From Verrucomicrobiota bacterium (GTDB taxonomy: Bacteria > Verrucomicrobiota > Verrucomicrobiia > Opitutales > Puniceicoccaceae): DNA of 64,000 nucleotides. Numbering within the stretch: the first letter of the stretch is position 1; each line of letters begins with the position of its first letter. Position numbers and translations under genes: made by a program. The stretch lies in contig JBCDMB010000002.1 in NCBI GenBank assembly GCA_038744685.1, positions 62,001 to 126,000 of the forward strand. Reading direction: 5' to 3'. Shown one piece after another: positions 28,183 to 38,872 of the stretch. The notes under the pieces are model-generated. The model had not been told where the DNA came from. It ran no database searches and saw nothing but the letters and a program-made list of their open reading frames with translations.

Positions 28183-29475
28183 ATGATGAATCGTAGACAT
28201 TTTCTCAAGGGCACCACTCTCGCGGCGGCTCCACTTTTCTTACCTCGTAGCCTTTTTGGATCCAGTTCTCCGTCTAATACGATCAATCTTGGGTTTATCG
28301 GAATGGGAGGTCAGGGTCAGGGCCGAAACCTCCGCGGATTTATCAGCAACGAGAACGTCCGGGTTATCGCGGTCTGCGACTGCCATCTGAAACGCGCGAG
28401 ACAGGCAAAACGTGCGGTCGATAAGACTTATCAAAACAAAGAGTGTGCCCTGTATCAGGATTTTCGGGATTTGCTTGCCAGAGAGGATATCGATGCCGTT
28501 GTGATTTCGACCCCTGACCAGTGGCATGTCCCGATGTCGCTGATGGCCCTTGAAGCCGGAAAGCATGTATTTTGCGAAAAGCCAACTCTTACCATTGTTG
28601 AGGGTCGGGATCTTGTTGGCGCCTTTGCTGCAAGTGACCGAGTTTTCCAATGGGGAATAGAAGACCGCACGATGACCAAATACTACCTTCTTGCCGGCTG
28701 GGCCCGAAGTGGACTCATCGGGGACATACACGAAGTCAACTGCACTCTGCCAAAGCACGATCCTTTCTCCCGCGAAGAACCTGTAGCTCCGCCCAAGGAG
28801 CTTGACTGGAACCTCTGGCTTGGACCGGCACCATTTGTCGAATACACGCCCAGCGCGTTGGACATGTTTCACTGGCGTTTGAACAGCGATTACGGTGGAG
28901 GGATGCTTTCGGATTGGGGTACTCACCTTTGCGACACGGCTCAGGTCGGTCTTGGAGTCGATGAAACAGGACCGGTTGAAGCCTTCGGAACCAGCCGTGA
29001 ACTGGATTCTTCCGCTTGGAACACGGATACTCCCATCGATTTTGAACTCACCCTCAAGTATGAAAACGGTGCCGAGCTCCACGTTGCTGACAACGCTACC
29101 TACAAGACTCTTCTTCTTGAATTCAAAGGCTCAAATGGCTGGGTCCGCTGCACCGGTTGGGATGGAAAGCTTGAAGCCAGCGATCCAACAATCCTTCGAA
29201 CACGAAACTTCGGTCCAGAGGCAAATTATTGGCCCAAACCGAAAGTTGAACACGAAGACTTTATCGACGCGATTGTAGCCGGTCATCGTGAAACCGCTTA
29301 CGACCCGGAAGCCGGCCACCGCCTGTGCACCGCTTTGCATGTGGGCCACATTGCACTGCGGGAAGGGCATCGTGTCGGATGGGACCCTCGGGAAGAATCG
29401 TTTACGACCGACCGGACCTCAAACGAGGCGAGCAAAGTTTACACGCGAGAAGATCGCGATTGGGAAAACGCGTAA
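28183..29475 (+). CDS. Tat-exported Gfo/Idh/MocA family oxidoreductase
   Basis: A 430-residue protein with a twin-arginine leader (NRRHFLKGTTLAAAPLFL, residues 3-20) and a second ATG at 28186 as an alternative start. Rossmann motif LGFIGMGGQGQGRN, second strand VIAVCDC, and the catalytic motif HVFCEKPTLT with Lys in EKP. Substrate-domain signature DYGGGMLSDWGTHLCDTAQ has the conserved Asp and His. Export suggests oxidation of a free sugar in the periplasm with a tightly bound cofactor, as in glucose-fructose oxidoreductase. Last gene of the 15-kb operon; an inverted-repeat element follows directly. Confidence 0.9.
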   Translation: MMNRRHFLKGTTLAAAPLFLPRSLFGSSSPSNTINLGFIGMGGQGQGRNLRGFISNENVRVIAVCDCHLKRARQAKRAVDKTYQNKECALYQDFRDLLAREDIDAVVISTPDQWHVPMSLMALEAGKHVFCEKPTLTIVEGRDLVGAFAASDRVFQWGIEDRTMTKYYLLAGWARSGLIGDIHEVNCTLPKHDPFSREEPVAPPKELDWNLWLGPAPFVEYTPSALDMFHWRLNSDYGGGMLSDWGTHLCDTAQVGLGVDETGPVEAFGTSRELDSSAWNTDTPIDFELTLKYENGAELHVADNATYKTLLLEFKGSNGWVRCTGWDGKLEASDPTILRTRNFGPEANYWPKPKVEHEDFIDAIVAGHRETAYDPEAGHRLCTALHVGHIALREGHRVGWDPREESFTTDRTSNEASKVYTREDRDWENA

Positions 29476-29510
29476 CGGTTGGAGTCGAATTCCAGCTGCG
29501 TGAGTCAGAA

Positions 29511-29685
29511 AAGTCAGTGAAACCCTGAACTGTGGAGGGACGCCGTCTCGGCGTTCGCAACGCTTGGCAATTCAGATAATCAAACGGTCCGCGAGACGCG
29601 GACCCTCCAGCGACTCTTTGGCTGAAAAAGCGAATTCGCTACTCAAAGATCTTTTTAGAAACAAACTTCACAAACGACAAACTAG
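29511..29685. repeat. Palindromic intergenic repeat / MITE-like element, copy A
   Basis: About 175 bases between the operon end and the beta-helix gene. The core begins GGAGGGACGCCGTCTCG near 29534 and is balanced by CGAGACGCGGACCCTCC near 29592-29608, a long imperfect hairpin. The tail (AGATCTTTTTAGAAAC, then CAAACGACAAACTAG) matches copy B at 32696-32921 with few differences. The left end is eroded compared with copy B, so the exact boundary is uncertain. It may also end transcription of the operon through its hairpin. The element has no coding capacity. Confidence 0.75.
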
Positions 29686-29764
29686 CCGAACGAAAAGTTA
29701 GAGGCTCCGCCTTATCTCCCCGCTGATGCGAAAGATCTATTCAAGATCAAGCCGACGGCCTGGG

Positions 29765-32419
29765 CTAGTCATTGAATTCCGAAGATTCATTGAGCTCCTC
29801 GCCGATGCTGATGTTGCGTTTGGTAAAAATCCCTCCATTGATCTCAACCGCCGCCCGACCGTAATCATGCACCTGCTCCATCTGCTTAAAGGCAAGGGTG
29901 CCGCCGCTCACATCAAAGCCCAGTTCGACCTCATCGCGTCCGTAAAACTTTGAGATAGTCATATTGATGGGTGTCGATTGAGGAACCGATGGATCGATCC
30001 GCATCACCATACCCTTCGGTAAATTGCCCTCAGGTATGTCTTCGGGAGAAACGTAGGGAAGCCGAGTCATGGGATTGATGCTGAAGTTCACAAAAGTCAC
30101 GCCTCGATCACCCAAGGATTGAATCCAAGCACCCCATCCAGCTTCACTTCCGCCAATCAGAATGTTGGCATTACCACCGCCGGTTCCCTTGTGGTCGACA
30201 AAATCGAAGGCGCGCGTGCTTCCATTGGTGAAATAACCCGTGATCTGTTCGTTGGCCCCACTCCCTATCGTGATTGCACCGTTTCCGCGCATGTTCGGGA
30301 TCAAACTGTAAGGCGTCCCGCGAAAGATCGCTTTCTTGTCCGGTTTGTTCTCCCCGGGGAACTCCAAGGTCAGTCCTTTCTGCGTGCTCAGAGCCCAGTC
30401 CTGCGGGCGGATGTGGCAGTTGTCGATCCAACCGATCGTTGGAGTTTGCCCCACCATTATCCCAATATTAAGAGCGGATCCATTCACTCTCGAAAGCACA
30501 TGTCGGTCACTGTTGTGGGAGGCAAAATCAATTCCGTTGTAGCAGTTTCCCATGTAAATCCGGCGAACCCAGCATTGAGGTCCTAAACTCCGGACGGTCC
30601 ACGGATAAGGTCTAATCTCCCTGTAGTCTTGGTTCGGATACCAGAAGGTTACCCCGCTGACTCCCGATCCGCCGCGGATCTCCGATGACTCAAGACTTAT
30701 CAAAGGAGGATTATCCGGTTTACCTACATCACCGGGTATATCGGCAACCAGCATAGTCCGAACCTGTTTCCCGCGAGGCATGAAGTCATTGACACCCCTC
30801 AATTCAACACCTGAAGGAACTCTTAGATGGCTGGTTATTAGGTAATGACCCTGCGGAAGATATACCGTTCCGCCGCCATCCCGGCCCGCTGTATCAAGTG
30901 CCTTCTGAATCGCGGCAGCAGCATCGGATTTCCCATCGTTGGGAGCGTTGAACGGCTGCTCTGTCACGATGTAAAGGGAATCGGTTCCGACTCGCGAGGG
31001 CAGCGTGTTTGGCACCGGCTGCAGAGGAATCAACTCCTGGCCGCGATCTGATTTGCTCTCATGATCGATCTGTGCGGTCACACCCGAGCTCACGTCTAGA
31101 TCAGGCTTTCCGGCAAATTGATTGCCGAATAGATTCAGCTGACTCGCCCTTCCGTCTACGCGGACCTGCTGTCTACTTTGACTGAAAACCGAGTCAAAAA
31201 CGTCTACATTTGCATCAATCGCATCGATCGCATACTGCCCGCTCCCCCACGATTCAAAGAGGCAATTCTGCACGTCGACTTTTTGTCGAAAGGTTCCATC
31301 TAGGCGAATGCTGTTCCCGCTGCCTCTAAACTCACAATCAAAAAGACGTAGTTCGGCTGAGTCTCTTGCCAGTCCATACTCTTTTCCGCTCTTGCTGTAT
31401 CGGGCCCATCGAGGATCCCAATCCGACTTGTCCATCGACATCAAAATACCGGCGCGTCGGGCAAAAATCCGGCTCCCTGTAATATTCACTCGATGATTGG
31501 AGCCACCAGTGAAATGAAAGCCAACGTCTGCGTTGAGAATATAGACGTCGTGCCAGTAGGTCCATCCGTGCGGGGGCATGACTTTGACTGCAGTTGGGTA
31601 GTTGGCGATGTTTATATCGATAAAGATTCCTGCATCCTGTCGGTTCAACTGAATCGCATGCGCGTCACGGTCTGCCAAAGCTCTTGTCAGTGCCTCCAAT
31701 TCCGGCGCTCCTGGAAGTCCCGAGGAAGCCCAGTAATGGGGTGCAAACCTTACACCATTGCACCGGGGAACCGCGGCAGCCCGCAGCATAACGATCCCGA
31801 CATCCAATGGTGAACCATAAACATTGATTACGGTCGAAAAGGAACCCGTCACAATACCGCGGTAAGCGTTCAAAAGGTTGACATTCTTGATCGCGGAATT
31901 ACCGCCCAAGTCAACTGTGGTCGGATACGGAACAATGTTGGTGATCGTCTGCTCCGGGTAGAGAATACTCAGATCACGGAGTCCACCTTCCTTCACGCTA
32001 ATAAATGCCTTTCCATCGGCATCTCCCCGGCCGGCAAAAGCCAACAGAACCGTTCCGAAAACAGCAATGTTGTCCGAAGTTGGCTTCCGAAAGTCCCCCC
32101 GAAGAGTGACTCCAGCCGGTATTTCAAGGTTTCCATCAATTCGGTACCGGCCAGCCGGTGCGAAAACCGTTCCACCCCGTTGATTCGCGTCCGACAAAGC
32201 CTCCTGAAAGGCAGCCGTGGAGTCCTTTTTGCCCAATCGATCCGCGTGGTAGGGAGCAGCTGTTACGTCGAAGGAAACTACAGGCACCAAATCTTCGCTC
32301 GGATAGGTCAGATCGGCGATCCATGCATAGGATTCCTCTGCTTGCGCAGTTGTGGGAGCAAAGAGACTGCCAAAAGCCAATGCTAGACCGAGATAGGTCT
32401 TTAATCTGGTATTAACCAT
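29765..32419 (-). CDS. Secreted double beta-helix protein, pectate-lyase-3-like
   Basis: 884 residues from ATG 32419 (a GTG directly before it is the alternative). Signal peptide with core LGLALAFGSLFAPTTAQA. Two similar halves each begin with the pectate-lyase superfamily signature: DSTAAFQEALSDANQRGG followed by VFAPAGRYRIDGNLEIP near residues 60-100, and AAAAIQKALDTAGRDGG followed by VYLPQGHYLITSHLRVP near residues 505-545. Such right-handed beta-helices include polysaccharide lyases and GH55-like or epimerase enzymes. The window has no other lyase candidate, so this may cleave uronic acid-containing parts of the polymer. Flanked on both sides by the same repeat element, which raises the possibility of cassette-like mobility. 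Confidence 0.82.
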   Translation of the reverse strand: MVNTRLKTYLGLALAFGSLFAPTTAQAEESYAWIADLTYPSEDLVPVVSFDVTAAPYHADRLGKKDSTAAFQEALSDANQRGGTVFAPAGRYRIDGNLEIPAGVTLRGDFRKPTSDNIAVFGTVLLAFAGRGDADGKAFISVKEGGLRDLSILYPEQTITNIVPYPTTVDLGGNSAIKNVNLLNAYRGIVTGSFSTVINVYGSPLDVGIVMLRAAAVPRCNGVRFAPHYWASSGLPGAPELEALTRALADRDAHAIQLNRQDAGIFIDINIANYPTAVKVMPPHGWTYWHDVYILNADVGFHFTGGSNHRVNITGSRIFARRAGILMSMDKSDWDPRWARYSKSGKEYGLARDSAELRLFDCEFRGSGNSIRLDGTFRQKVDVQNCLFESWGSGQYAIDAIDANVDVFDSVFSQSRQQVRVDGRASQLNLFGNQFAGKPDLDVSSGVTAQIDHESKSDRGQELIPLQPVPNTLPSRVGTDSLYIVTEQPFNAPNDGKSDAAAAIQKALDTAGRDGGGTVYLPQGHYLITSHLRVPSGVELRGVNDFMPRGKQVRTMLVADIPGDVGKPDNPPLISLESSEIRGGSGVSGVTFWYPNQDYREIRPYPWTVRSLGPQCWVRRIYMGNCYNGIDFASHNSDRHVLSRVNGSALNIGIMVGQTPTIGWIDNCHIRPQDWALSTQKGLTLEFPGENKPDKKAIFRGTPYSLIPNMRGNGAITIGSGANEQITGYFTNGSTRAFDFVDHKGTGGGNANILIGGSEAGWGAWIQSLGDRGVTFVNFSINPMTRLPYVSPEDIPEGNLPKGMVMRIDPSVPQSTPINMTISKFYGRDEVELGFDVSGGTLAFKQMEQVHDYGRAAVEINGGIFTKRNISIGEELNESSEFND

Positions 32420-32695
32420 CACAGATAAAACGGAGCTCTGAAGACGAAGTTAGAAACTGGGAACAGCTCCAAAAACGAAGAAAACTCACGAGCACTACTG
32501 TTCATTGAATTCGCTTACGACCCTCTGCACGTGCTACTCGAATAGAGGTCCTATACAAATCTCCATAGCAACGTCTTGTCCGTTTCTATTCAGATCCATT
32601 GGAAAACTCTTCTTTCGTAAATGATTGGGTGTCGGTGCGTAGTTTACTGGGCGAACAGATCTCCTTTCTCTTGGTTTTAGGACTATGAAAAGGCT

Positions 32696-32921
32696 CTAGT
32701 GTGGTGTCAGGGAATTAACCTGCAGACTAACATCCCCCAACCATGGAGGGACGCCGTCTCGACTCGGCTGAGCTCGTGACCGGTCGGTGTCCACAACGCT
32801 TGGCAATCCAGATAATCGAACGGTCCGCGAGACGCGGACCCTCCAGCGACTCTTTGCCTGAAACAGCGAATTGGCTACCAAGAGATCTTTTTAGAAACGA
32901 ACTTCGCAGACACCACACTAG
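32696..32921. mobile_element. MITE-like element with 13-base terminal inverted repeats, copy B
   Basis: A 226-base element bounded by perfect inverted repeats CTAGTGTGGTGTC (32696-32708) and GACACCACACTAG (32909-32921). The ends carry TA, compatible with TA target duplication as in IS630/Tc1-type elements. Inside is the same GGAGGGACGCCGTCTCG...CGAGACGCGGACCCTCC hairpin as copy A, with an extra ~22 bases in the loop. No transposase is encoded, so any movement would have needed one in trans. The rest of the gap 32420-32943 shows no gene. Confidence 0.75.
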
Positions 32922-32943
32922 GTAGCAGAATCTTACTATTCCC

Positions 32944-34479
32944 CTATTTCTCATCGTAAGCCGGAGGGCGCTCCTCCACAAAAGGCCCCCACGCCATAAA
33001 CGTATCGTATTTGTCCATCTGCTGGTACTCTTGCGGATCGTAATTGGGATTCTCCTTCGGAAACCGAGCGCCCACCTCTTCAAGGTACACCATCATCTGG
33101 TCAAAAAGCCTTTGATGTGTTTCAGGATATTTCCTCGCGACGTTGACGGATTCTCCTGGATCCTCTCTCAGATTGAAGAGCATTGGAACATCGGGGCGTT
33201 CGTAGAAATGCATGACCTTTGCGTTCCCAGCGATGATTGCAGAATGAGGAATCTCCGACCGATAGTGAGGAAGATGGAAGAAAAGTGGACGGTTATAAAA
33301 AGCAGCGTCGGGTTTCTCCCCAGCCAAAAACCGAGCCAAGCTGACTCCATCAATGTCTTCAAGCTCATCAGGATCGCCACCAGCCCATTCAAAAAAAGTC
33401 GGAAGAAAATCGTAGTTGATCACATTAGCAGAGAAGACCGAACCCGGCTCGATCCCAGGTCCTTTGACAATCATCGGCACCCGAATACCTCCTTCCCAGA
33501 GCCACCACTTACTCCCGTGCAGGGGTTGAACTTTCCCCTCAGTCAAAAGTAACTCCTTGTGGCGATAGCCATTATCAGAGACGAGGATCACATAGGTATT
33601 CTCTTCGATCCCGAGGTCGGAAATCGCCTCCAATACCATGCCAATTGCACGGTCGAGATCATCTCCCATAGCAAACCAATTGGCCGGATCACTTTTTCGG
33701 CTCAGTTCGTCGGGCGAAGTTCCCTTCTCCTCATAGAATTCTAAGACGGTCGGATGGTTCACGTATTTCTCCCGGGCCTGCTGGGTGGATTCCCTCCCCT
33801 CATGCATCGCGTAGTGAGAGATCTGCAAATAAAACGGATTCCCAGCTTCTACCTGCTCTTCCATGAAGCCGATAGCCTTATCAGTCATACTGAACATTAA
33901 CTTTGGATCCGTTAAATCGTCAGGCATAGTTCTGGCCTTGCCGACAGTATTTCCGGGTGTGTTGGTCGTATCTCCGTCATGCAACACATAACCCGCATCA
34001 CCGGGATCGCTATACATGTGCCACTTTCCCACATGGGCACTTACATACCCAAGGGGAGCGAGTGCTTTCGGAATGGTGACTGCATCGGCCTTCAGCGATG
34101 GCTCTGCGACTGTAGGAATCACTGGCATCCGAAGATATTGTGGCCGCATATCGTAATAATCATGCTTAGTCCTTCCTAGAACCAGCGTTAAGCCATGCCG
34201 TGGAACAGACTGCCCAGTCTGCACCGACACCCGTGCCGGAGCACACTGGTGTGAACCGTAAGCGTTGGTAAATTTCATTCCGTCCTCTGCAAGCCTTTCA
34301 AGGTTCGGCATTTCCAAAATGGGCATGGCAGAGTTTTCCATGGAATCATTCATTTTCACAGGCGTCCCGTTCCAAGCCCAATCATCCAGATAGATCAGGA
34401 CAATATTCGGGCGATCCGCACTGGAAGCCGTTGAAGTGAGGAATATCCCTAGAAAGAGCAGAAATGGTAACATTTTCAT
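32944..34479 (-). CDS. Secreted sulfatase, CAPAR type
   Basis: 511 residues from ATG 34479 (the frame extends 6 bases further to a TTG). Signal peptide [19 protein letters not shown]. Motifs: IYLDDWAW (metal Asp pair), [14 protein letters not shown] with catalytic Cys79, [18 protein letters not shown] for the second metal site, and GGIRVPMIV. It belongs to the same branch as the C-terminal half of the giant protein at 55747-59286, with matching [17 protein letters not shown] and [14 protein letters not shown] segments. A predicted operator lies about 40 bases upstream. Substrate unknown; a role in removing sulfate from the same polymer as the fusion enzyme is likely. Confidence 0.94.
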
Positions 34480-34516
34480 AACCAATCGAGAAAAACAGAG
34501 AGAATCAAAGGAAAGA

Positions 34517-34639: not shown

Positions 34640-37600
34640 TTAAATTCCGCCAATCCACTTACTCTCTAAGTACAGGCATTCAGAAATCAGGCTCTCAATC
34701 GACATTCCTTCCTTAAGGATACGGACTTCACCAATCTGTCCGTCAATGCGTTGACCTCCGTTTCCACTTCCACCCGCGTAGATTTCTTTCGACCCTGTAA
34801 AATCTGCGGCCGGAGTATTACCAGATATCGTTGTCCCGGCTTTGCTTTCAAAAAGGGTCCAATCGCCCGTTGATTTGTCGTAACTAAAGCCAAGTATAAT
34901 CGTATCGCCCCCCGTGATCGTCACTCCGGTGTTCTGATAGAGAGCTCCTCCGATGTAGACTTCCGGGTTTCCGCCGCTACTGATACGAATCCCAAAGCCA
35001 CTGCTTGTGCTACCCGACGTGGCTACTACAGGATTTTTCGCACTCGTGATATTGTCGAAGCGGATGGCACATAAAGTGGTAAACCCAGAATTGTTCTCTG
35101 CTCCACCACCAGCTGAGAAATTTAGGATGTTGCCTGCCTCGGAAACACTGATCAAACGGAAGCGATTCGATCCATCGAATTCGATCATGTCTAGGCTAGT
35201 CGGAGATTGGATCACCGAAGGATAGGTTTGCGTCTCAGACGATTGCGGGACCGCATCAAATCCAAAGCCAGAAACATCGTTCCACTGAGTGACCCGATCG
35301 TTTGAATCGACCAGTACATTAACCGCTACACTCGCGTCGTAGCTGTAATGGGCACCAACCTTTAGAACTGAAGCCGAGTTGTCTCCCTCTTCAAGCGAGG
35401 TAACTGGGTTGACATAGTATTCGTATAATGCCCCATCAATGAATCCAGTGTCATCAAAACCGAGGGGTAGCATGGTTGCGCCACTCGTAAGCTCCGTAAA
35501 GCCGCTCTCGTTTGCGGCACGACGGTAGACTTTGAACCCAAATAAATCAATGTTGGGTGTTCCAAACCATTGCAACAAGTCAACGCCACTCGAGTAGTTT
35601 GTCAGGAAAGTCCAGTCAGGCAGCACGGCTCCAAGCGCACTCGGAAGTGTCTGATTCTTGGTCGAAGAATCGACTGACTCATTGCCCGCGGCATCGACGG
35701 CTGTTACGACGTAGCTGTATTCAACGCCAGGCCACGCGGTATCGTCAAAATACTGGCCATAGAGCCGCGTATGAAGATCTTTATTCAACTTCACCGCATC
35801 CAACCTTGTTTCAACTGCAGATGCCCATCGATAGATATTGTAACCAATAAACGGTTCATTGTCCGCTGCGTTTGGCTGAAAGCGGATCTTGATGCCGAAA
35901 TCACCATTCGCAATGGTCGCCTTGATGTTAGTAGGAGCAAAAGGAGCAATACTGTCCACAACGGGGCTAGCATCTTCGACCAATACATTATCGAGATAGA
36001 TATCCCCATTTCCGCTTCCTCCTCCGCGACTCCATCTCACTCGAACCTGAGTCAGATTGGTTGAACCAGCAGGAACATTGAACTCAGTCTCTAGACTTTG
36101 GAACTTATAGTTGTAGAGATCCGGGTTCATCGTGATGAAAGGTCCCCAGATTTGGGTAGTTGAATCAAAGGTCAGGATGATTCGCCCGGAGATCGTTCCG
36201 TGCCCGGTGTTGTCCTGATCGCTGAAGCCGGTCCGAATGGATGTTTTCAGACGAGTTTTTCCATTTAAAGGAATCGTCACACCTGCCTGCGTATCCCGAC
36301 TCTGCCCTGGGTTCAATCTGCGGCTTGCGACATATGCTCCTCCTCCGTTACGGGGAATCGTGCTGCTGACCAAGTTAACGTAGTTTGAATCCTTAATCAT
36401 CTCCCGACTGAGTCCGCTAAAGTCACTGCTCGTCTCGAAATTCTGCAGATAGAGATTTCGAGGCACAATTAGGTCATCCCAATGTGGAACACCAGCAGCA
36501 TCCCAGTCTGCACCATTCGGGTTGTCTTGAACCTTCGGAAAAGCCCTACCCAGCCAGCGAGCGAAATCTAGCAGCAGAGCTTCATTGACTCCGGCATCTT
36601 GAAGAAGATTCTTCTGCAGAAGACGATAGGTCGCCTCAGAGAAAATCTCATCCGGTAACAGGAAGATCTTCGCGGTGCTTTGCACATCGGATGGCTTGTC
36701 CCAGGGTGCCGGGATGTAGTCCATGTGTTCAATGATGTTACGGTCATTTTTATAGACGCCGTTTTTCGGAGGTGGGTCACGGGGGATCGTATTTACATCC
36801 TCGGACTCGTAGATGTAGAGCCACTCGTGCAAGTATTCCTCGAAGAGTCTACGCCACAAATCAGGGGCGTATTTGTCAGCAGACAAAAAGAGTCCGCGGT
36901 TGGCGGTTTCGTCAGAGTAAAAGAAATTCGGCGCGAGGGTGCGTTGAGAAAAGCCCAGTTTACTAAAAAGGCTTTCGGTGCCTGAGGGATTTCCGGGAAC
37001 CCAGGGCAAGGCCGGTTTCCCGGTATAACGCGATTGCATCATATTGATTTGGTAGGCTGCTCGCGTGATAAAGAAGTCATGCTTAGTCACATTGTAGGCA
37101 TCAATCATGTGGTTCTTGACGTAGCCCCAATCCACATAGCTATTCATTCCTGCTGGTCGCCGGGGACCCGAATTGAGGAGTACTTCGAGAAGATACCATT
37201 GATTGGATTCCTGTTTACCCGTCCGGTAGAGTTGTTCCTCGAAATTACTCCAGTTTTTACTAATGATGTGGGCAGCATGAGCCCAGACCCACTGACGTGT
37301 GCCCTGTGCGGGTAGTGACAAGGGATCCGGATCGTATTCGGGTGTGTAATCCGGCGCAAAAACTCCGGCTGCATCGGGTTGCACATCCTCCAGCTCAAAT
37401 CGGCGGACCAGGTAAAGGCCTTTTACGGCACGCCACTTAACGATTGATTTGCGCATCTCGTCCCTACTGATGTGTGGGAAAATAATCGGAGCCGAGGTGG
37501 TTCCATAGAGTTCATCGTCGCCATTATTGAACTCAGCTTGGCTCATCCTCATGTCGCCATACCATTTGTCTTCGATATCAGACATGTATGCACTGAATCT

Positions 37601-38872
37601 CGACCAGAGTGTGCCATCTGAAACATAGGATGCGACTCCATTGGTAATCAGGTCGGTAAGTAGCCGCTCATAGATGATTTGGGGCCCTTCATTGACTTTC
37701 GTTCCCGCAAGATAGTCTGGACGTTCTGGCTGGATCGCATCGATCATAAGGTCGTCCGGCCATATATCCACTGGCGCGTGGTCAGGTAGCCAGGCATTCC
37801 AGTCGGGTAGCTGAATCGTCATACGGATGTCGCGCATGCTGAGATTTTTTGTGTAGTCCATGATCTCTGCTACCGAACCAAAGTCAGTGCCCTCGGGGAG
37901 AAGTTCGCTAATGATCTCTCCGTCCGTTTCCGCGACAGCATCAAGCCCCTGGCCAGCCAACCATGAGGCCGCCTTTTGGTCTTTTGTGAGTTGAGAATCG
38001 CCCTGCTGAGGGTCGGTGTCCGGACCAGGCTGAAAGGGTGGATCCCAAGGACGACCAGGGGCATTCATCCCACCAGGCAGGTTCAAGTTGAGCGAACGAA
38101 TATACGCTGCTATCTGATTCCCCTGATGTTCACTCAAACCGTGAAATTGTGAACGGCTGACTATCGATTCATTGGAAAAATTGAAATACCTCAGATCGCT
38201 ACCGTCGTCAAAGTGACAGGCTGCACAGGAAGCTTTGATCGAACGCTGGGCGACGATGTTATCAAGAAGAATTCCATCCGAATCCCAGAGTATCCTACCT
38301 GCGTCTATACTAGCTGCATCTTGGTATCCTACCGGCGCAGTCCAAGTCGAAGGATCTTCATCCGAAAAGCTGGTGGAAACCGCCGAAACGTTGCTGGCAT
38401 CAACAAAATCAAGGTCCAAGACACGAATCGTTGTACTGCGTCCATCCGTGCCGTTGACTCGAATACGCACGTAATTCTCACCACCCTGCACAATATCAGC
38501 TGGATCAATATCCACATAAAAGCGAATTGTTGAGTTGATACCGCCAATCCCGTCCTGTTTCAGTTCGAAATCAGGAAACGAGACCTCAGGAGAATTGTTA
38601 TAAATCGTGATCCAATCGCCACTGTTGACTTGCACAGAGACCTGTCCTCCAAAACGGAGATTATGGACTCGCAAATAAAGGTCTTCCGCTGTTACCGCCG
38701 AAGTCAGATTTACCGTCACCGTTTCGATTTGGGGTGTAATATCCCAGCTGGTCACGCGGACGGGGAATTGTAGGCCGAAGGATTGATGCGCTAGGAAGAC
38801 TAACGAGAGACTTGAACTGGCGATTTGAGTGAATGTAAGACAATACTTTTTGAAGAACTTTAGGGGTGTCAT
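34640..38872 (-). CDS. Large secreted haem c-, Fn3- and LamG-containing protein
   Basis: A 1410-residue exported protein. Signal peptide near residues 15-33; a beta-rich domain to about 165; then a c-type haem site CAACH at 216-220, with GGMNAPGRPWDPP further on providing a candidate methionine ligand; a long middle region (about 300-950) of unknown fold rich in Trp, Tyr and Asp; a fibronectin type III module (APTNIKATIANGDFG...VVTAVDAAGNES); and a C-terminal LamG/concanavalin-like module (about 1180-1410, VTQWNDVSGFGFDA, then IGEVRILKEG). The last module resembles the LamG region in the giant sulfatase at 55747. The haem suggests a redox activity, for example oxidative attack on a polysaccharide, with LamG and Fn3 for binding; this is inference. 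Not a sulfatase. Confidence 0.85.
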   Translation of the reverse strand: MTPLKFFKKYCLTFTQIASSSLSLVFLAHQSFGLQFPVRVTSWDITPQIETVTVNLTSAVTAEDLYLRVHNLRFGGQVSVQVNSGDWITIYNNSPEVSFPDFELKQDGIGGINSTIRFYVDIDPADIVQGGENYVRIRVNGTDGRSTTIRVLDLDFVDASNVSAVSTSFSDEDPSTWTAPVGYQDAASIDAGRILWDSDGILLDNIVAQRSIKASCAACHFDDGSDLRYFNFSNESIVSRSQFHGLSEHQGNQIAAYIRSLNLNLPGGMNAPGRPWDPPFQPGPDTDPQQGDSQLTKDQKAASWLAGQGLDAVAETDGEIISELLPEGTDFGSVAEIMDYTKNLSMRDIRMTIQLPDWNAWLPDHAPVDIWPDDLMIDAIQPERPDYLAGTKVNEGPQIIYERLLTDLITNGVASYVSDGTLWSRFSAYMSDIEDKWYGDMRMSQAEFNNGDDELYGTTSAPIIFPHISRDEMRKSIVKWRAVKGLYLVRRFELEDVQPDAAGVFAPDYTPEYDPDPLSLPAQGTRQWVWAHAAHIISKNWSNFEEQLYRTGKQESNQWYLLEVLLNSGPRRPAGMNSYVDWGYVKNHMIDAYNVTKHDFFITRAAYQINMMQSRYTGKPALPWVPGNPSGTESLFSKLGFSQRTLAPNFFYSDETANRGLFLSADKYAPDLWRRLFEEYLHEWLYIYESEDVNTIPRDPPPKNGVYKNDRNIIEHMDYIPAPWDKPSDVQSTAKIFLLPDEIFSEATYRLLQKNLLQDAGVNEALLLDFARWLGRAFPKVQDNPNGADWDAAGVPHWDDLIVPRNLYLQNFETSSDFSGLSREMIKDSNYVNLVSSTIPRNGGGAYVASRRLNPGQSRDTQAGVTIPLNGKTRLKTSIRTGFSDQDNTGHGTISGRIILTFDSTTQIWGPFITMNPDLYNYKFQSLETEFNVPAGSTNLTQVRVRWSRGGGSGNGDIYLDNVLVEDASPVVDSIAPFAPTNIKATIANGDFGIKIRFQPNAADNEPFIGYNIYRWASAVETRLDAVKLNKDLHTRLYGQYFDDTAWPGVEYSYVVTAVDAAGNESVDSSTKNQTLPSALGAVLPDWTFLTNYSSGVDLLQWFGTPNIDLFGFKVYRRAANESGFTELTSGATMLPLGFDDTGFIDGALYEYYVNPVTSLEEGDNSASVLKVGAHYSYDASVAVNVLVDSNDRVTQWNDVSGFGFDAVPQSSETQTYPSVIQSPTSLDMIEFDGSNRFRLISVSEAGNILNFSAGGGAENNSGFTTLCAIRFDNITSAKNPVVATSGSTSSGFGIRISSGGNPEVYIGGALYQNTGVTITGGDTIILGFSYDKSTGDWTLFESKAGTTISGNTPAADFTGSKEIYAGGSGNGGQRIDGQIGEVRILKEGMSIESLISECLYLESKWIGGI

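Follow-up and report, generated by a model that had tools for sequence, protein, structure and literature searches.

IS630-derived MITEs are known, RUP of Streptococcus pneumoniae among them (PMC2229807, PMC2817692, in their accessible parts), and IS630-family elements are described as inserting at TA and duplicating it (PMC2170065, from an excerpt). QMITE2 of Coxiella burnetii is presented, in the available part of its description, as a MITE of 150–190 bp that holds a REP inside and often lies in 3′ untranslated regions (PMC5896051). In Anabaena variabilis, GTAG-15 REP dimers lie inside long palindromes, and the heads of published REPs read GTAG or GTRG (PMC3733652). According to excerpts of the same paper, published REPs are mostly found downstream of genes. 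Finally, inverted doublets of such units, termed REPINs, are defined in PMC3116915, as far as its accessible text goes.

Here, we analyzed a 64,000-nt stretch of a Verrucomicrobiota genome (the window; contig JBCDMB010000002.1 of assembly GCA_038744685.1), in which two repeats, copies A and B, lie on either side of a gene for a beta-helix protein. We consider it highly probable that the repeats are non-autonomous MITEs of the IS630 type, each inserted on its own and built around a REPIN-like core, and that the beta-helix gene lies between the two by coincidence. The features concerned are collected in Table 1.

Table 1. Positions of the two repeat copies, their internal units and the surrounding genes in the window
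Feature	Position	Strand	Remarks
MITE copy A	29523..29685	+	Lacks its left end; damage at the right end (CTAG, 29682-29685)
First REP-like unit, copy A	29533..29556	+	TGGAG head, 8-bp stem, 3-nt loop
Second REP-like unit, copy A, inverted	29586..29609	-	Stem doubles as a terminator-like match (29604-29586)
MITE copy B, complete	32697..32920	+	224 nt TA to TA; inside CTAG on both sides (32696, 32921)
First REP-like unit, copy B	32744..32792	+	Long-loop form, ~25 nt longer than in copy A
Second REP-like unit, copy B, inverted	32822..32845	-	
885-aa beta-helix protein gene	29765..32422	-	Pfam Pect-lyase_RHGA_epim; between copies A and B
GFO/IDH/MocA oxidoreductase, neighbor of the beta-helix gene	28183-29475	+	Pfam
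Sulfatase, neighbor of the beta-helix gene	32944-34485	-	Pfam

Copies A and B and their family in the genome

Copies A (29511–29685 as originally given) and B (32696–32921) lie in the same orientation on either side of the 885-aa open reading frame, and their pairing by the direct-repeat families D1 (138 nt, 88%) and D2 (28 nt, 86%), together with the list of reading frames, bears out the arrangement given in the preliminary description. The inverted ends of copy B (32696–32714 and 32903–32921) are 89% complementary over 19 nt; their first 13 bases are identical and TA lies one base inside, in agreement with the perfect 13-base ends bordered by TA that had been claimed for this copy. Copy A had been called eroded on the left, and it is indeed recognizable only from 29523, with damage at the right end as well. 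Within the window, the 18-mer TGGAGGGACGCCGTCTCG, at three or fewer mismatches, has four matches against 0.06 expected, and the repeats therefore exceed chance and form a real family. The window holds no Rfam match at the gathering threshold. A scan of 29300–33100 gave one promoter-like match, over the left end of copy B, against 2.3 expected, and a 1410-aa open reading frame on the minus strand at 34640–38872 has no Pfam match at E ≤ 0.001.

A search of the whole 3.64-Mb genome returned 15 rows, which reduce to 13 dispersed copies: L013 and L015 represent a single copy, and L014 was excluded as a 48-nt REP fragment that lacks the arms. Short, dispersed and devoid of a transposase gene, these copies have the properties of a MITE; this count, together with ends common to an IS630 element (see below), upholds the earlier designation of the repeat as MITE-like. 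Both ends are recognizable in 7 of the 13 copies, which measure 182–224 nt and run from TA to TA in every case, while the other six were left out of the border analysis for want of a recognizable end. Moreover, G follows the right TA in all seven copies and C precedes the left TA in five of them; a CTAG preference is named in the title of a 1991 paper. With at most one mismatch, TAGTGTGGTGTCA occurs 13 times in the genome, at the places of the family copies, and not at all in the control. No match to the repeat at E ≤ 0.001 was obtained in 34 other genomes, of which only two are congeners and a third belongs to the same family. The exact sequence CTAGTGTGGTGTCA occurs once in one of these relatives (G023), and this single match looks like chance.

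The copies tend to lie close to gene 3′ ends: by simple open reading frame calls, 10 of 13 are within 110 nt of one, against 40% of the intergenic bases of the window; this null is rough, and a contig end is near three of the copies. The placement resembles the distribution reported for REPs in the accessible text of PMC3733652. Furthermore, four copies (L002, L007, L008, and L012) have a contig end within 1,174 nt, which is more than expected (binomial 0.0014). A contig-end artefact was considered for this excess, and the flanks of L012 and L007 point to what may be a repeat-rich neighborhood; to the right of L012, 144 nt are repeated at 99% at C22:58391. In the right flank of L007, a motif of 25–32 nt (GCTCGCCGAAGTCCGCCGAGGCGG-like) recurs in several relatives, at seven places in G011.

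The joined flanks of the seven copies with both ends were also compared with 35 genomes, in many of which scoring was limited to eight first-look candidates. No alignment crossed an insertion junction in this search, and the matches outside the own genome extended over only parts of the flanks. The genes to the left of L009 are present in G001, G002, and G003 and those to the left of L003 in G002 and G003, and the right-hand reading frames of both sites have no tblastn match in the loci of five relatives. As no relative aligns across an insertion site, the TA duplication that probably accompanied insertion is read from the borders of the copies.

The hairpin doublet inside the repeat

The interior of the repeat consists of two inverted units, each with a TGGAG head and an 8-bp stem. 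In the short-loop form, the units are GGACGCCG-TCT-CGGYGTYC and GGTCCGCG-TCT-CGCGGACC; in 5 of the 13 copies, copy B included, the first loop is about 25 nt longer. As in REPINs, short palindromes behind a head tetranucleotide form an inverted doublet. The head is GGAG instead of the published GTAG or GTRG, and we therefore call the doublet REPIN-like. The hairpin GGAGGGACGCC...CCTCC, which had been suggested to be structured, thus stands as structured at the sequence level, while its reading as a single hairpin gives way to two adjacent hairpins, which fit better. Folding the strand of the copies as DNA also yields a joined, long-stem form (z of −3.0 for A and −3.6 for B).

Similar units also occur on their own. 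The sequence TGGAGGGACNNCGNC has 49 matches in the genome, against one in the control and at most two in any of the 34 relatives; seven of the 49 lie inside MITE copies, and the 49 include ten heads-outward pairs, 69–204 nt in size. In a set of 26 distinct units, chosen for pairing at 7 or more of the 8 stem positions, two-sided changes are found in 31 stem cells, where shuffles give 6.9. When the stem partner is slid, pairing falls from 97.1% to 25.8–50.0%. The signal is weak in two further measures: 3 pairs show a two-sided change against 2.1, a count reached in 148 of 500 shuffles, and there are 10 further pair types against 7.8, a count reached in 27 of 500. By eye, one free-standing REP unit (L100, at C24:45765) and the MITE copies L001, L004, L005, L008, and L010 contain similar long-loop inserts (ACTCGGCT-like). 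Loop variants may thus be common to free-standing units and MITE copies.

The genome holds 15 Y1_Tnp matches, and the flanks of ten of them were read. One of the ten, the RAYT C15 (L157:1185–1871), is matched by the NCBIfam model for REP-associated tyrosine transposases at 80.4 bits (cut-off 80) and sits between two identical GGAG hairpins whose stem is unlike that of the MITE units. Among the 10 of 15 matches with flanks read, no RAYT specific for TGGAGGGAC units was found; recognition of the core by a RAYT is presumed. Also among the 15 matches are three Y1_Tnp open frames (304–340 aa) clustered on one short contig, at G000 C25:1727–7143 (L156).

IS630 ends in other Verrucomicrobia

A scan of genome_contigs with TAGTGTGGTGTCAGSGAA returned 26 stretches, of which 22 belong to Cerasicoccus frondis or C. 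maritimus, one to a Pelagicoccus MAG and one to a Verrucomicrobiales MAG. The remaining two are single matches in Psychrobacter and Rhodococcus (L051 and L056), and these look like chance. In Cerasicoccus, the N-terminal half of a transposase lies beside one MITE-type end (L053), the C-terminal half of a transposase stops just inside the other end (L059), and a longer transposase gene has the right end at one mismatch (L062). The cut-off of the NCBIfam model for IS630 family transposases is exceeded by L062 and L059 and just missed by the L053 fragment (99.2 of 100), and Pfam DDE_3 is found in L062 and L059. No single locus among those inspected in Cerasicoccus combines an intact transposase gene with both ends. 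Many Cerasicoccus contigs (L034–L057) stop within approximately 60–75 bases inside the IS630 end, as though assembly failed at the element, and L047 looks rearranged. Since the terminal sequence of the repeat also bounds IS630 transposase sequence in Cerasicoccus, the repeat is, on sequence grounds, an IS630-type MITE.

Searched with the Cerasicoccus transposase fragment, the genome that carries the window gives nothing at E ≤ 1e-10, and the one DDE_3 match there (C1:36117) is a truncated remnant without MITE ends. A partner transposase in the same genome is usual for IS630-derived MITEs, though it is no requirement. As no transposase of matching type was found in this genome, we infer that the MITE moved in trans; a partner transposase may also be missing from the assembly, which is 97.8% complete in 56 contigs.

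The same design is seen in the Pelagicoccus MAG, with a REPIN type different from that of the window genome. At L039:7195–7395, IS630 ends surround the doublet type of that MAG; this element was identified by reading, as the automatic count skipped it because of one stem mismatch. A second element (L192:15008) is cut by a contig end; of its 33 initial bases, 31 agree by eye with the right end in Cerasicoccus. In addition, 31 stretches of this MAG (533,461 nt) hold four GGAG doublets without IS630 ends (two each in L190 and L211), and no DDE_3 match was found in the MAG. Two observations speak against a general design: the element of the Verrucomicrobiales MAG (L033) has the ends and lacks the GGAG doublet, and with a strict rule for stems no such doublet was found in ten Cerasicoccus stretches (200,000 nt). 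Because the window genome and the Pelagicoccus MAG share the ends and carry different REPINs, each like the free-standing REPINs of its own genome, we tentatively raise the possibility that Verrucomicrobia repeatedly build chimeric miniature transposons, in which IS630 ends, moved by a cut-and-paste DDE transposase, are placed around the resident REPIN type of the genome, moved by a single-strand HUH transposase. If so, two unrelated transposases could both spread one small element and bring it into new hosts.

Origin of the arrangement and comparison with known systems

The preliminary description had proposed a cassette moved by recombination between the repeats or by a transposase acting in trans, and the pair could be what is left of a composite transposon or recombination cassette with which the beta-helix gene arrived, the outer end of copy A having decayed later. 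The direct orientation of the copies around the gene is as expected of such a unit, none of the 34 relatives gives a hit to the gene at E ≤ 1e-30, and an IS630-associated composite transposon is named in the title of a 1991 paper. However, a composite transposon has usable outer ends on both sides, and the left end of copy A is unrecognizable. Furthermore, A and B are only 74% identical, whereas B shares 91% identity with L002 and 89% with L003 and L009, and the copy tree groups B with the short-loop copies L002 and L003 (supports 0.87 and 0.89). A and B are thus not nearest relatives, which leads us to reject their duplication as a pair, and their loop forms differ. The long- and short-loop forms are interleaved on this tree, which suggests repeated changes in loop length. 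Two of 13 random points in 3.64 Mb come within 3,211 nt of each other in 12.9% of simulations. The sole paralog of the gene found in the genome at E ≤ 1e-30 (C2:150404–152437) lies more than 50 kb from the nearest repeat copy, and the GC content of the gene (0.525) matches that of four other genes measured (0.498–0.532) and of the window (0.519). Collectively, these observations leave the cassette very improbable; A and B most likely flank the gene by coincidence, and we judge the beta-helix gene to lie outside the mobile element. The case also shows that, where a MITE family is dispersed, two of its copies on either side of a gene say little in favor of a cassette.

Alternatively, the copies could be retained for a regulatory function in RNA or DNA, for example as terminators or as hairpins that stabilize mRNA at gene 3′ ends, instead of being neutral insertions. 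Their concentration at gene 3′ ends and the two-sided changes in the stems fit such a role, as does the mostly downstream position of REPs in the accessible text of PMC3733652. However, the positional null is rough and insertion near 3′ ends may simply be tolerated, several copies are decayed, and a terminator scan of 29300–33100 gave three sites where shuffles give 4.5; the second hairpin of copy A is among the three. A regulatory role is therefore rather unlikely in our view. Less probable still is that a RAYT inserted the core into MITE copies, or exchanged it between them, so that core and arms move separately. Free-standing units in both this genome and the Pelagicoccus MAG, the 15 Y1_Tnp matches and the interleaving of loop forms on the copy tree would all be compatible with such traffic, but wherever the arms are preserved, the alignment has the core at one and the same place between these homologous arms, as expected of one pre-assembled element, and the search of the own genome returned no copy of the ends without the core.

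In the favored explanation of separate insertions, the MITE most likely entered by cut-and-paste insertion into the TA of a CTAG-like site, driven by an IS630 transposase that would have been supplied in trans and was not found in the own assembly. Most copies sit just past gene 3′ ends; after the separate insertions, copy A decayed and copy B remained complete.

We found no description of an IS630-ended MITE with a REPIN doublet in the one open-licence library searched, covered mostly as titles and abstract openings. To our knowledge, the route by which REPINs reach new genomes is unsettled, and they are thought to be passed down with their RAYT. An IS630-ended MITE built around a REPIN-like doublet offers a testable carrier for such transfer.

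As far as the available parts of the respective reports go, the present element resembles RUP and other IS630-derived MITEs in being short and non-coding, in its IS630-family ends and TA insertion site, and in its dispersal between genes; it differs from RUP in the REPIN-like doublet inside and in that no matching transposase was found in its own genome. Like QMITE2, it is a MITE with REP-like hairpins inside; in contrast, QMITE2 is described, in the text accessible, with direct repeats of 7–11 nt and a GTAG REP, whereas the present element has a TA border, IS630-type ends and an inverted GGAG pair. The GTAG-15 dimers of A. variabilis are similarly REP dimers within longer inverted repeats, but they have GTAG heads and are reported only as palindromes, with no transposase family tied to them there (PMC3733652). 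With REPINs and RAYTs, as excerpted from PMC3116915, the element shares a head followed by a short palindrome, inverted doublets and Y1 transposase genes in the genome, while its head is GGAG and its doublet is carried inside a DDE-type MITE. A MITE with a REP inside has a precedent in QMITE2, and the present element joins IS630 ends to an inverted GGAG doublet.
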